The notes under the pieces: generated by a model | The model's database searches: none | What the model was told of the DNA's origin: nothing | The model's input: only the letters and a program-made list of their open reading frames with translations | Translations under genes and position numbers: made by a program | Shown here: piece by piece, positions 26,329-51,150 of the stretch | Layout of the letters: each line of letters begins with the position of its first letter | Position numbering within the stretch: the stretch's first letter is position 1 | NCBI GenBank assembly: GCA_002841625.1 | Contig: PHAG01000002.1 | Location: forward strand, 310,001-374,000 | Length of the DNA stretch: 64,000 nucleotides | From: Firmicutes bacterium HGW-Firmicutes-1 | Lineage (GTDB): Bacteria > Bacillota > Clostridia > Lachnospirales > Vallitaleaceae | Direction: 5' to 3'

Positions 26329-26850
26329 ATGGTTAGAGTAATAGCAGTTATTGCAATTATTATTTTTAATATTGTTTTTCAATCAACCATAGTTCAAAAC
26401 TTTGCTATTGGTGGTATTACAATAAATTTATTAATTATGACAGTTGTTTCTTTTTCTTTGATGAGAGGAAAGCTGGAAGGTGCCATTATTGGTTTTTTTA
26501 TTGGACTGATGCAGGATGTTTTTTTTGGTAGTGTAATTGGGTTTTATGCATTATTATATATGTATTTTGGATTTTTTAGTGGGTATCTTAACAAAGCACT
26601 TTATAGAGACAATTTATTAATACCAATACTCGCTATTTCTGTAAGTGATTTGATCTTAAATCTGTTTATTTACATAATGACATATCTTTTTAGAGGTAGA
26701 ACAGATTTTCCATATTATTTTACCAATATCATATTACCAGAACTAGTATATACGACTTTAGTAGCAGTATTTGTATATAAGTTTTATATGTTTGTGAATG
26801 AAAAACTTGATTCAGTGGAAAAAAGAAGGGAGAACAAGGATAAGGTATGA
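26329..26850 (+). CDS. mreD: Rod-shape membrane protein MreD
   Basis: A 173-residue hydrophobic protein with about five membrane helices, typical of MreD in size and in its GFFIGLMQDVFFGSVIGFYAL segment. It overlaps the PBP2 gene by 4 bases (ATGA), so translation is coupled to the enzyme it works with. Confidence 0.9.
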   Translation: MVRVIAVIAIIIFNIVFQSTIVQNFAIGGITINLLIMTVVSFSLMRGKLEGAIIGFFIGLMQDVFFGSVIGFYALLYMYFGFFSGYLNKALYRDNLLIPILAISVSDLILNLFIYIMTYLFRGRTDFPYYFTNIILPELVYTTLVAVFVYKFYMFVNEKLDSVEKRRENKDKV

Positions 26851-29606
26851 AACCATTTTTAAAAGCCCTACGTAAAATACTAACTCATAGATTGTTCTTG
26901 CTTAGTGTTATTATACTCTGTATGTTCATTCTTCTGTTTAATAGAATTTTTGAACTTCAAATTGTTCAAGGTGAAATGCTTGAAAACGAATTCAGTTTAA
27001 GTATACTTAAAGAAAGAAAGTTAGAGGGACAGCGTGGAAACATTTATGATCGATATGGATTTCCTTTGGCTGAGAATATAATTGCTTACAATGTGTTATT
27101 GGATGGAAGTATACGTGTTGATAATATGAATCAAATGATTTTTGAACTTTGCCAAATTATTCAACATAGTGGTAATGAAATTGTGAGTGAACTTCCTATT
27201 ACAATAAATGAAGATGGAACTTTTGTTTATACGCAGACAGAGTCTCAAATACTTAAATTTAAAAAGAATATTTTTGTTGGAAACACCTCAGCAGCATTAA
27301 CTTCTACAGAAAAAAACATGATGGCAAATGATATGTTTAAATACCTTAGAGATGAGCTTTTTGAAATTCCAGCAGATATATATACAGATGAAGATGTTTT
27401 ATCAATTTTAAATATTAGATATCCCTTGTGGTTGAATCGGTATACACAATATCAACTTGAAACAGTGGCGATTGACATTAATGACGAAACGCTTGCTAGA
27501 ATAGAAGAAAATATATGGAAATTCCCAGGTGTATCAATTGTAGAAGATCCACTTCGTGTTTATAATGAAGCAAAATATTTTGCTCATATCATTGGATATA
27601 CTGGTACAATAGATGCCACTACTTATGAAGACCTTAAATCACTTGGATATAGTGCGAACGATACCGTTGGTAAAATTGGCATTGAACAAGAGATGGAGGT
27701 TTATCTTAAAGGTAAGAATGGTATCCAAAGAGTTGAGGTTGATAACTTTGGAAGAACGATGAATATATTAGAAACCATAGAGCCAGCAGCGGGTAAAAAT
27801 GTCTATCTTACGATAGATAGAGATTTACAAATGGAGTGTTATAATCTTTTAGAACAAAAACTTGCCTATTTACTTCAAAGTACGTTGAGTATGAATGGTT
27901 ATTCAGGTAAAGATAAAGATGATAAAGTTACTTTAATGAGAGATGTTTTTAGCTCGTTATTTTCGAATAACATTTATTCTATTCAAAAAATTGAAGAATC
28001 AACTGAGGGTGAAAGACAGAGAAGGGTATATAATACATTTTTAACTGCTTATAATGGATTGAAAAATAATATCACAGCCTCATTAAGTGATAACTTAACA
28101 TATCCTACCAAGGAAGATATGAATTATTATACATTTATACTTACAAAGTTAAAAGAAGAGGGTTACCTCTTGGATGGTTATAAGGAATCACCATTATATT
28201 CGAAATTTATGAAAAGTGAAGTATCTTTTAAACAGCTCTTAGAAGAATACGTTACCAATAAATTACTCACGATAGAAAGCTTGGGTATTAAGGATGAACC
28301 TCCCTTTGAAGTTATAAAAGGGATTATATTAAATGAGCACGTTAATTATGTCACCTTCAAAAGAGCAATTTATACTGGTCTCGCAAAAAAAGAGCGTTTT
28401 TCCTATACAGATTTATGTGTAGCACTGGTTGAACAAGGGATTGTAACGACTTCTGAAGATCAACTGAGGAGTTTGAAAAATGGATCGTTAGGTAGCATGG
28501 CATTTATTAAAGATATGATAACTAAGCTCGAATTAACGCCTCAACAACTAGCCCTTGATCCGTGTTCGGGATCTGTTGTTGTAACGGATGTAAATACAGG
28601 TGAGGTGTTAGCAATGGTTAGCTACCCGAGCTATGATAATAATCGTTTGGTTAATAATTTTGATTATGAATATTATTTGAGTTTACTTAATGATCACTCT
28701 AAGCCACTGTTTCCCATGGCAACACAAGGAAAAACTGCTCCAGGATCTACCTATAAAATGGTAGCTGCAATGGCTGCACTTGAAGAAGGAGCTATTGGAG
28801 TTAACGAACATTTTTCTTGTCAAGGTTTATATCAAAAGATAACACCTCATGCAAAGTGCTGGATTTATGATTTGGGAGGGACGCATGGTTCACTAACCGT
28901 ATCAGGTGCATTGGAAGTATCGTGTAATTATTTTTTCTATGATATGGGATATAGATTATCTAAGGATTCAGATAATTCGTATTTAGATATTAGAGGTGTC
29001 AATGCTCTCAATGAATATGCCACATTACTAGGACTGGGTACTAAAACAGGAATTGAGATTGGTGATTCTGATCCAACTTTACCCGTACAAGATGCTGTAC
29101 GTTCTTCTATTGGTCAAACAGCAAACACATATACACCTGTTCAGTTAGCAAGATATGTTTCAACCTTGGCAAACGGTGGTACTAGCTATGAACTAAATGT
29201 TATTGATAAAATTCTCGAAAACAATGGGGCACTATTTTTTGATAAAACGCCAGCTGTTACTTGGAAAAATGATTTCGAGCAAACAAACATCAAAACGATT
29301 CAAGAAGGTATGTATTTAGTTACATCAGGTTCAAGAGGTACTGCAAGAACAATCTTCTCGGGTTTTCCAATTCCTGTAGCTGGCAAAACCGGTACTGCTC
29401 AACAATCGATAACACGACCAGACCATGGGATATTCGTAGGGTATGCACCTTATACGAAACCTGAAATTGGGGTTTCAGTTGTTATTCCTTTTGGTTATGG
29501 TTCTACCGTACCAACAATAGTAGGTAAAGACGTTATCGGAGCATATTATCAAATTGGTGAAGAAAAAATAGATGACGAAGCCTCATTCGACCATATTTTA
29601 GATTAA
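26847..29606 (+). CDS. mrdA: Penicillin-binding protein 2 (elongation transpeptidase) with a large insertion
   Basis: Class B PBP that crosslinks peptidoglycan in lateral growth together with RodA. N-terminal membrane helix (about 15-36), dimerisation/pedestal region beginning RGNIYDRYGFPLAEN, then the transpeptidase domain with SxxK as GSTYK, SxN as SCN and KTG as GKTGTA. At 919 residues it is well above the usual 600-700. Most of the excess lies between ITIDRDLQMECYNLLEQKL and the block CSGSVVVTDVNTGEVLAMV, roughly residues 345-570, as an insertion at the start of the catalytic domain. Similar inserts are known in some Clostridia. Last gene of the mre cluster. Confidence 0.92.
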   Translation: MKPFLKALRKILTHRLFLLSVIILCMFILLFNRIFELQIVQGEMLENEFSLSILKERKLEGQRGNIYDRYGFPLAENIIAYNVLLDGSIRVDNMNQMIFELCQIIQHSGNEIVSELPITINEDGTFVYTQTESQILKFKKNIFVGNTSAALTSTEKNMMANDMFKYLRDELFEIPADIYTDEDVLSILNIRYPLWLNRYTQYQLETVAIDINDETLARIEENIWKFPGVSIVEDPLRVYNEAKYFAHIIGYTGTIDATTYEDLKSLGYSANDTVGKIGIEQEMEVYLKGKNGIQRVEVDNFGRTMNILETIEPAAGKNVYLTIDRDLQMECYNLLEQKLAYLLQSTLSMNGYSGKDKDDKVTLMRDVFSSLFSNNIYSIQKIEESTEGERQRRVYNTFLTAYNGLKNNITASLSDNLTYPTKEDMNYYTFILTKLKEEGYLLDGYKESPLYSKFMKSEVSFKQLLEEYVTNKLLTIESLGIKDEPPFEVIKGIILNEHVNYVTFKRAIYTGLAKKERFSYTDLCVALVEQGIVTTSEDQLRSLKNGSLGSMAFIKDMITKLELTPQQLALDPCSGSVVVTDVNTGEVLAMVSYPSYDNNRLVNNFDYEYYLSLLNDHSKPLFPMATQGKTAPGSTYKMVAAMAALEEGAIGVNEHFSCQGLYQKITPHAKCWIYDLGGTHGSLTVSGALEVSCNYFFYDMGYRLSKDSDNSYLDIRGVNALNEYATLLGLGTKTGIEIGDSDPTLPVQDAVRSSIGQTANTYTPVQLARYVSTLANGGTSYELNVIDKILENNGALFFDKTPAVTWKNDFEQTNIKTIQEGMYLVTSGSRGTARTIFSGFPIPVAGKTGTAQQSITRPDHGIFVGYAPYTKPEIGVSVVIPFGYGSTVPTIVGKDVIGAYYQIGEEKIDDEASFDHILD

Positions 29607-29675: not shown

Positions 29676-29823
29676 TTTAACCGAATGGAAGAAGTTCCCC
29701 ACTTCTTAAGTGGAGGAACTAATTCCAACATCGGTGGGGGTGTGGGCTCCAACCGATGTGCAAGCGAAGCTTGCATTCGGTTACGAAACCGTAGCGAAGG
29801 CGGAGGTTTTGCAACATTGAATT
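29676..29823 (+). repeat. Multi-hairpin interspersed repeat, copy 1
   Basis: An element of about 148 bases between PBP2 and minC. ACCGAATG (29680-29687) and CATTCGGT (29774-29781) are complementary and enclose three hairpins. These are GTTCCCCACTT/AAGTGGaGGAAC (29694-29719, 11 pairs and one bulged A), ACATCGGT/ACCGATGT (29728-29735 / 29752-29759, with inner G-C pairs), and GCAAGC-GAA-GCTTGC (29760-29774). A fourth region, GAAACC...GGTTTT (about 29785-29810), follows. A diverged inverted copy lies at 51036-51150. The resemblance to structured ends of IS200/IS605-type elements or to a mobile non-coding RNA is inference; it is not coding. Confidence 0.7.
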
Positions 29824-29844: not shown

Positions 29845-30687
29845 ATGAAAGATGCAATATTAATAAAAGGGAATAAGTATGGATTAACCATTATCATAAA
29901 TGATATGTTTGATATTCGTACAATACAGGAAGCGTTGTATAAAAAACTCAATGATTCTAGAAAGTTTTTCGGATCATCTAAGGTTTCCTTATCGTTTGAA
30001 GGAAAAGCCCTTACAGCTGAAGAACAGAAAACCTTGATTGAAATTGTGCAAAATGCTTCTGACTTAGATATAATATGTATAATGGATTCAACACAAGATA
30101 TTTCCCCTGTGGTTGAAAAAGAGCAGACAACCAACCTTCAGGAAATGGAAAACACAAATAAACATAGTAATGAAAATGAAAGTAGTAATAAACATAGTAA
30201 TGAAATGGAAAGCACAAATAGCAAGAAAAATAAATATGAAATTGAAGTCAAAAGTAGTAAAAGACCTGTAAGTAAAAGTAGTAAGAATAGCAATGATTCT
30301 AGTGTAATGGAAGTGATTCCCGAGAGTGCGGCAATTTTCCACAAAGGTACGCTAAGATCAGGTCAAGAAATTATTGCTAACTCAAGCATTATTATTATGG
30401 GTAATGTACACAACGGTGCATCAGTATCAGCAAAAGGTAATGTAATCGTTATTGGAAAATTAAATGGTTGTGTTCATGCAGGAAAGGATGGTAATGAAAC
30501 CTCCTTTGTTGTTGCATTAAATATGAGTCCAACACAACTACGGATAGCTGATGTATTTGGCCGTTCACCTGATAAGAAAAGTAAAATTATTAGTATTCCA
30601 CAAATAGCTTACGTTGAAGATGAACGTATTATTATTGAAAATATAAACAGGAATATTTACGAAAATTTAAATTTTATTAATAATTAA
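29845..30687 (+). CDS. minC: Septum-site-determining protein MinC
   Basis: FtsZ-polymer inhibitor that blocks polar division. N-terminal domain about 1-85 (KDAILIKGNKYGLTIIIND), a low-complexity linker about 95-150 rich in Asn/Ser/Lys with a decapeptide repeat, and the C-terminal beta-helix domain (about 165-245, HKGTLRSGQEIIANSSII and GNVHNGASVSAKGNVIVIG) that binds MinD. At 280 residues it is longer than the usual 210-240 because of the linker. First of minCDE. Ribosome site AGAAGG. Confidence 0.9.
   Translation: MKDAILIKGNKYGLTIIINDMFDIRTIQEALYKKLNDSRKFFGSSKVSLSFEGKALTAEEQKTLIEIVQNASDLDIICIMDSTQDISPVVEKEQTTNLQEMENTNKHSNENESSNKHSNEMESTNSKKNKYEIEVKSSKRPVSKSSKNSNDSSVMEVIPESAAIFHKGTLRSGQEIIANSSIIIMGNVHNGASVSAKGNVIVIGKLNGCVHAGKDGNETSFVVALNMSPTQLRIADVFGRSPDKKSKIISIPQIAYVEDERIIIENINRNIYENLNFINN
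30157..30216 (+). repeat. Short tandem repeat inside minC
   Basis: The 19 bases AATAAACATAGTAATGAAA occur at 30157-30175 and again at 30187-30205, a 30-base period encoding NKHSNExESx twice. It lengthens the disordered linker between the two MinC domains without shifting frame. Confidence 0.7.
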
Positions 30688-30704: not shown

Positions 30705-31502
30705 ATGAGCGAAGTAATTGTTATTACATCTGGTAAAGGTGGCGTAGGTAAAACAACTACCAGTGCTAATATTGGTACTGGCCTTGCTATGTTAGATAAA
30801 AAAGTTGTTTTATTAGATGCAGATATTGGCCTAAGAAATTTAGACGTAGTTATGGGACTAGAAAACAGAATCGTATACAATGTTATTGATGTAATTGAAG
30901 GAAATTGCAGATTAAAGCAAGCATTAATTAAAGACAAGAAATACCCTAATTTGTTTCTCCTTCCTGCAGCTCAAACAAGGGACAAAGATGCTGTTACCCC
31001 AGAGCAAATGAAGAAATTGTGTGAACATTTGAAAGAGGAATTTGATTTTGTAATTATTGATTGTCCAGCAGGTATTGAGCAAGGGTTCAAAAATGCAATT
31101 GCAGGTGCAGATAAGGCAATCGTTGTTACAACACCAGAAGTATCGGCTATTAGAGATGCTGATAGAATCATTGGTCTATTAGAGGCAAATGATCTTCATC
31201 ATTCTAGATTAATTGTCAATAGAATCCGTGTAGATATGGTAAAACGTGGAGATATGATGACTGTTGATGATGTAATAGAAATATTGGCAATAGACTTAAT
31301 AGGTACTATACCAGACGATGAAAACATCGTAATCTCTACAAATAACGGCGATCCAATCGTGAATAACACTACTTGTCCTTCAGGAAGAGCATATATGAAT
31401 ATTAGCAGAAGGATACTTGGAGAAGAGGTTCCATTTATGGAATTTCACAGTGATAAAGGCCTATTTGGAAAATTAAAGAGTATTATGGGTTTTAATAACT
31501 AA
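30705..31502 (+). CDS. minD: Septum-site-determining ATPase MinD
   Basis: A 265-residue ParA-type ATPase that recruits MinC to the membrane. Deviant Walker A GKGGVGKTTTSANIG (residues 10-24), switch region DADIGLRNLDVVMGLE, and Walker B IDCPAGIEQGF are present. The C-terminus (LFGKLKSIMGF) is an amphipathic membrane-targeting helix. Ribosome site AAAAGGGG; 17 bases after minC. Confidence 0.96.
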   Translation: MSEVIVITSGKGGVGKTTTSANIGTGLAMLDKKVVLLDADIGLRNLDVVMGLENRIVYNVIDVIEGNCRLKQALIKDKKYPNLFLLPAAQTRDKDAVTPEQMKKLCEHLKEEFDFVIIDCPAGIEQGFKNAIAGADKAIVVTTPEVSAIRDADRIIGLLEANDLHHSRLIVNRIRVDMVKRGDMMTVDDVIEILAIDLIGTIPDDENIVISTNNGDPIVNNTTCPSGRAYMNISRRILGEEVPFMEFHSDKGLFGKLKSIMGFNN

Positions 31503-50816: not shown

Positions 50817-50920
50817 TAATTTAATGTTTGGGTAGGTGTTTAATAAATTTAATGAACTTAATATGGCATTATCTCAGACAGTCGACAAAAGCGTTTTTTC
50901 TGATAAGTGTATTGATTATT

Positions 50921-50994
50921 GGCAGTAAGTGTTCATTTTTCTGGTCTTACCCTTCGGCTGGTCAGGCGAAAAATGAACACTTACTGCCTTTTGT
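50921..50994 (+). terminator. Long perfect hairpin with T tail
   Basis: A 21-base perfect stem (50921-50941 with 50968-50988; arms begin GGCAGTAAGTGTTCATTTTT and end ACACTTACTGCC) encloses a 26-base apical part that contains a C-TTCG-G tetraloop. TTTTGT follows. It is far longer than the other terminators in the window. It ends transcripts from the HD gene and could also derive from a mobile element or encode a processed RNA. Confidence 0.75.
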
Positions 50995-51035
50995 ATTTAT
51001 TTTGAAGAAAAAATGCTTTTATCTCTGTTTTGTTA

Positions 51036-51150
51036 ATTGACAATTAAGTCAATGTTACAAAACCTACGCATTTGCTAGGGTTTCGTAATCGAAGGTAAAC
51101 TTCGCTTGCACATCAGTGGGGCGACTAATTCCATTCGGTTAAATTGTCAA
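51036..51150 (-). repeat. Multi-hairpin interspersed repeat, copy 2 (inverted, with terminal inverted repeats)
   Basis: On the minus strand this reads like the element at 29676-29823: TTAACCGAATGGAA, then GATGTGCAAGCGAAG, then TTACGAAACC, then GTAGGTTTTGTAACATTGA. The large GTTCC hairpin and part of the ACATCGGT hairpin are missing. The arms AAACC/GGTTT and TTAC/GTAA still pair, with CTA/TAG covariation inside. The copy is bounded by TTGACAATT (51036-51044) and AATTGTCAA (51142-51150), perfect 9-base inverted ends. It lies between the HD gene and the 3' end of gdh. Confidence 0.65.

Follow-up and report, generated by a model that had tools for sequence, protein, structure and literature searches.

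A structured intergenic block between a PBP2-type gene and minC is very probably a non-autonomous, PATE-like transposable element

Results and discussion

What is the strongly folded, apparently non-coding block that lies between two genes of cell shape and division in Firmicutes bacterium HGW-Firmicutes-1 (genome G000 below)? The window, by which we mean the whole stretch of 64,000 nucleotides that was analysed, contains it at positions 29676-29823. A preliminary description of the sequence had proposed that it might be a mobile non-coding RNA, an end of an IS200/IS605-type element, an omega-RNA-like relic or a transcript-processing element. The analysis below argues that it is very probably a non-autonomous transposable element, a miniature (MITE) of the palindrome-associated (PATE) kind, that transposes as a single DNA strand, with chemistry of the IS200/IS605 type.

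Position and predicted fold of the window block

The upstream gene (26847..29606, plus strand) encodes a penicillin-binding protein of the PBP2/MrdA type, with Pfam Transpeptidase and PBP_dimer domains and a best NCBIfam match, pbp2_mrdA, that is slightly under its cut-off. The downstream gene is minC (29845..30687, plus strand; MinC_C, TIGR01222), which is followed by minD (30705-31502; TIGR01968). These profiles agree with the placement of the block between PBP2 and minC, and the element has no open reading frame, as had been supposed. An Rfam search of the window gave no family at its gathering score.

The fold of the block is far from chance. As RNA, its minimum free energy is -70.3 kcal/mol (z -8.0), which none of 200 shuffled sequences equalled, and as single-stranded DNA it is -38.3 kcal/mol (z -8.1), with a structure identical to that of the RNA. 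The outer AACCGAATG/CATTCGGTT pairing, the three inner hairpins and the fourth stem of the preliminary description are all found in this fold. The block begins with the pentamer TTTAA (29676..29680, plus strand), which is the 5' flank of the inserted element and stands almost universally to the left of its copies. The mobile unit itself, delimited by two empty sites and the alignment of copies, is here the long form of 141 nt, CCGAATGG...CATTGAA (29681..29821, plus strand). The outer stem (29679..29782, plus strand) has its arms at 29679-29687 (AACCGAATG) and 29774-29782 (CATTCGGTT), and thus pairs the AA of the target and the start of the element with an internal GGTTA. It encloses hairpin A (29687..29727), hairpin B (29728..29759) and hairpin C (29760..29774; GCAAGC GAA GCTTGC), all on the plus strand, and A and B are the ones that are shortened or missing in short forms. 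Beyond it lie the terminal hairpin D (29784..29811, plus strand), with a conserved loop TAGCGAA.GCGGA and a covarying stem, and the right end (29817..29821, plus strand), which reads TTGAA in the window copy and TTGAC in most others.

Copies, sub-families and covariation

The element has at least 45 blastn matches in G000. About 20 copies are long forms (around 146 nt) and about 20 are short forms (around 75 nt), in which hairpins C and D and the outer stem are all that remains. Additional internal hairpins can be present (L016, L041, L042 and, further, L257; L042 being a locus of G001), and the element overall ranges from about 75 to 195 nt. The G000 copies start with TTTAAC and finish with TTGAC or a near variant. 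They are diverged and probably immobile.

A second sub-family is found in Firmicutes bacterium HGW-Firmicutes-7 (G001), a member of the same genus. In it the outer stem AACCGAATG/CATTCGGTT has become AACCTAACG/CGTTAGGTT, with a compensatory change of GAAT to TAAC, and hairpin D has changed from AACC/GGTT to GCTC/GGGC; a tandem G/A mismatch is present in hairpin D of the G001 and Blautia types. Across the alignment of copies, 95% of outer-stem cells are paired. Using the structure drawn by hand for the long forms, two-sided changes were found at 14 pairs among 20 long copies, and the covariation was matched in none of 500 shuffles; RNAalifold, applied to an alignment that included short forms, did not recover the structure. 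Further copies and covariation, which the preliminary description had set as its own test, are both seen.

The window holds a second, internally shortened copy on the minus strand, at about 51048..51138, with its target TTTAA at 51139-51143. The diverged inverted copy that had been reported thus exists. Its supposed compensatory changes were not confirmed: hairpins A and B are mostly lost, and the outer stem (AACCGAA against TTCGATT) carries a C/A mismatch. Covariation proper appears between sub-families only. It is worth adding that this copy adjoins a second repeat family of about 170 bp, mostly self-complementary (AAACAGAGATAAAAGCATTTTTT..., window 50871-51047, minus strand), which recurs at some five more places in the fetched G000 loci and also in G001 (L096).

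Two further arrangements were observed. In G001 (L042 / L078, contig C23) about three element units form a tandem array with junctions TTTGC|TCCTAACG, and we infer that such arrays (L042) fit a second insertion re-using the same TTTAA. Downstream of one G000 copy (L002; contig C2, 252235-252340), a remnant of a G001-type right end lies beside a copy of the G000 type; this site, occupied in both genomes, holds old and new insertions.

Empty sites and recent movement

Evidence for mobility comes from two sites that are filled in one genome and empty in a related one, the comparison being between related genomes and not between states of one strain before and after insertion. In the first (L170, G124), a copy has split an IS1182-like transposase gene. 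An intact gene of 97% identity in G032 reads GAAGAACAGTTATTCAA|TGAAATAAATG, and the interrupted one reads TTATTTAA|CCGACG...CCTTGAC|TGAAATAAATG. In the second, a copy in Blautia schinkii splits AAAAGATTTAA|ACAATATATTC, to read TTTAA|CCGAATC...GATTGAC|ACAATATATTC, and two other Blautia genomes have AAAAGATTTAA|ATAATATATTC uninterrupted. The two sites show that the element inserts exactly 3' of TTYAA, without target duplication, and that its right end is TTGAC. Target duplications, for which the flanks were to be checked, are thus absent at both. The 5' end, TTTAACCG, and the 3' end, CATTGAC, are not inverted terminal repeats, and hairpins A and D lie near the ends.

B. schinkii has seven copies at unrelated sites that differ by 0-1 mismatches over 163 nt, which indicates recent movement. 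Orthologous sites in G001 are often empty as well, their flanks being too diverged to define junctions at the level of the base. In about ten copies the TTTAA supplies the upstream gene with its in-frame stop codon; because TTTAA often occurs in genes as an xTT-TAA stop codon, many copies lie exactly at gene ends.

Replication strand and gene orientation

Of the 141 copies counted in four Blautia genomes, 128 are on the strand that the replichore predicts (p = 6e-25, with the origin taken from dnaA, lengths rounded for three of the genomes and partial copies included). The predicted strand corresponds to the lagging-strand template, and several of the 13 exceptions are near the presumed terminus. 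The same rule can be seen on contig C10 of G000, where the strand switches across dnaA (L013 minus; L019 and L022 plus). Together with the empty sites, the TTTAA target and the TTGAC right end, this bias supports the earlier suggestions of a mobile element and of an IS200/IS605 type.

There is also a bias with respect to genes, the copies being in the sense of the upstream gene in 45 of 53 cases here and 56 of 70 elsewhere. Among the Blautia copies that are antisense to their upstream gene, six agree with replication and three with neither; where the two strands conflict, the score is six for replication and none for the gene. The bias in gene orientation is therefore probably secondary to the replication strand. 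Replication-strand targeting, rather than RNA function, can yield both the gene-sense bias and the insertions at xTT-TAA stop codons.

This bears on the best of the rival explanations, namely that the block is a functional structured RNA (a 3' UTR, an intercistronic element or a trans-acting sRNA) retained because of what it does to transcripts, its spread being a by-product. The strong, covarying fold and the upstream gene on the same strand both speak for it, as do a weak likeness to the Rfam family Clostridiales-1, listed as an sRNA, and the location of the window copy within the likely 5' UTR of minC, with a promoter-like site upstream. A cis effect of the window copy on minC is possible. 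However, stem changes among resident G000 copies have a ratio of G-U to A-C of 22:14 (p 0.24), which is not a significant excess and gives no clear sign of selection at the RNA level after insertion. In addition, the conflicts of strand go to replication, orthologous G001 sites are often empty, and inner hairpins are gained and lost among copies. We consider a structured RNA improbable as the primary explanation, and the earlier idea of a transcript-processing element finds no backing in either the substitution ratio or the orientation of the copies.

Distribution

A covariance-model search of relatives, as the preliminary description had advised, covered 295 genomes of the order and gave matches in 36 of them. 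In a set of 60 genomes from the genus Blautia, 27 match. Named carriers are Blautia (schinkii, wexlerae and massiliensis), Anaerocolumna, Lachnoclostridium phytofermentans, Eubacterium ramulus, Fusicatenibacter, Anaerobium and uncultured Clostridia. In other genomes the architecture is retained, with a changed sequence and covarying stems. The plasmids and phages searched gave no match.

Matches to the right end alone were considered as candidate autonomous elements and turned out to be short or decayed copies. A larger insertion sequence was suggested by copies near contig ends (L177-L181); three G286 contigs also have the upstream sequence in common, and the candidate was rejected since elsewhere the copies stand alone. 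Weak Rfam matches to RsaJ and others on loci of G000, G001 and G032 are far under their cut-offs and were taken as chance.

Candidate mobilising enzymes and a possible mechanism

A search of tnpA loci and of the named stretches found no autonomous parent with the ends of the element, which speaks against the favoured reading. Only the right pentamer TTGAC is common to the element and an IS200 (G145/G195). As a separate observation, IS200 elements of these two genomes (L209 in G195, L212 in G145) lie directly after terminators, with a right end GGTGGTCTTGAC whose pentamer is that of the element.

Full-length TnpA is present in all 10 Blautia genomes examined that have copies and in none of the 6 that lack them. 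This co-occurrence (p about 1e-4, worked out by hand on related genomes in a chosen set) is only suggestive. B. schinkii, which has the freshest copies, has an IS605-type TnpA and no RAYT. Several carriers of diverged copies have no Y1 gene, and in G000 the only one is RAYT-like; both points weigh against the favoured reading, although the latter is consistent with the G000 copies being old and stranded.

That RAYT-like gene raises the alternative of a repeat of the REP/REPIN kind that the genome's one RAYT mobilises. Such a gene is indeed present in both G000 and G001. However, it has no flanking element, for which reason it was rejected as the mobiliser; B. schinkii has TnpA only, and the size and right end of the element are not those of REPs. 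We regard this explanation as very unlikely. The gene itself (L031 1465-2223; G000 contig C6, 161720) shares homology with G001 over the gene alone (1382-2245) and has GTGCCTGTCCCCTTTAC at its end, and so is probably mobile in its own right. An omega-RNA or TnpB-guide relic of IS605 or IS607 origin, an idea related to the earlier proposal, would fit the IS605-like insertion and the structured right end, and we discount it almost entirely because G000, G001 and most carriers lack TnpB, which is clear in B. schinkii only.

For the favoured reading, a transposable element moving as single strands, the following scheme can be proposed. While the template of the lagging strand is exposed as a single strand, the element would fold in such a way that its two ends, TTTAA^C on the left and TTGAC^ on the right, are brought next to each other where the outer stem and hairpin D have their base. 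The internal GGTTA pairs the target AA into the outer stem, and could instead pair with the foot of hairpin D. The element would then be excised by a Y1 HUH transposase acting in trans, and the excised circle would be pasted 3' of another TTTAA on the lagging-strand template. In the IS200/IS605 family, TnpA works on the template of the lagging strand, where it recognises subterminal hairpins and selects its cleavage sites by means of guide tetranucleotides (PMC6006769). The element bears the outward marks of this process. A different HUH enzyme could produce similar insertions.

More tentatively, and with rather less than even confidence, we suggest that the copies represent a widespread family of transposase-free, single-strand DNA parasites in Lachnospirales. 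One multi-branched fold might bring both cleavage sites together, with GGTTA as the partner first of the left target (TAACC) and then of the right foot, and a resident TnpA or an unrecognised HUH enzyme might drive the family in trans. In this proposal the Clostridiales-1 'sRNA' would be a branch of the family and not an sRNA.

Comparison with known systems

RF01699 (Clostridiales-1) was described as a candidate RNA found in Clostridiales and in the human gut (PMC2864571). Its four matches with E below 1 all fall on element copies, on the same strand and through hairpin D, with scores of 34.6 (E 3.5e-4), 28.4, 26.5 and 22.0 bits; the sub-family of the window itself is not matched by the model. 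With a best score of 34.6 bits against a gathering cut-off of 48, the element is not a member of RF01699. The two share the hairpin D motif UGAG...GUAGC...GCGGA...CGAA and an occurrence in human-gut Clostridiales, whereas in the Rfam model a different stem closes the motif and the terminal TTGAC boundary is missing. A distant relationship is nevertheless likely, and a published 'candidate sRNA' family may relate to the end of a transposable element.

Like REPs and REPINs with their RAYTs, the element is a repeated hairpin structure near gene ends with ties to Y1 enzymes; it is much longer, with a target and a strand rule, and has no flanking RAYT. BOX elements of pneumococcus have a variable number of inner hairpins inside one outer stem, and thus resemble it in their modularity, their sequence being unrelated.

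The likeness to IS200/IS605 elements such as IS608 and ISDra2 lies in the short fixed target, insertion 3' of that target, a defined right end, hairpins near the ends and use of the lagging-strand template. The element differs in lacking tnpA and tnpB, its length of about 75-195 nt leaving no room for a TnpA gene, and in its target TTTAA and right end TTGAC; an IS605 of Blautia uses TTTAT/TTAT and TCAA.

What defines the PATEs of Haloquadratum is that they have no inverted terminal repeats, carry palindromes near their ends, leave no target duplication and encode no transposase (PMC3119063). The element shares all four traits, and a target of 4-6 nt (here TTYAA). It differs in its bacterial host, in ends that are joined by a long-range stem within a multi-branched fold, and in that no IS605 parent of matching ends was found. 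An unexplained structured intergenic block thus becomes a mobile element whose target, ends and strand rule are defined and which is present in common human-gut Blautia, and it offers a small natural substrate for testing Y1 transposase recognition in trans.
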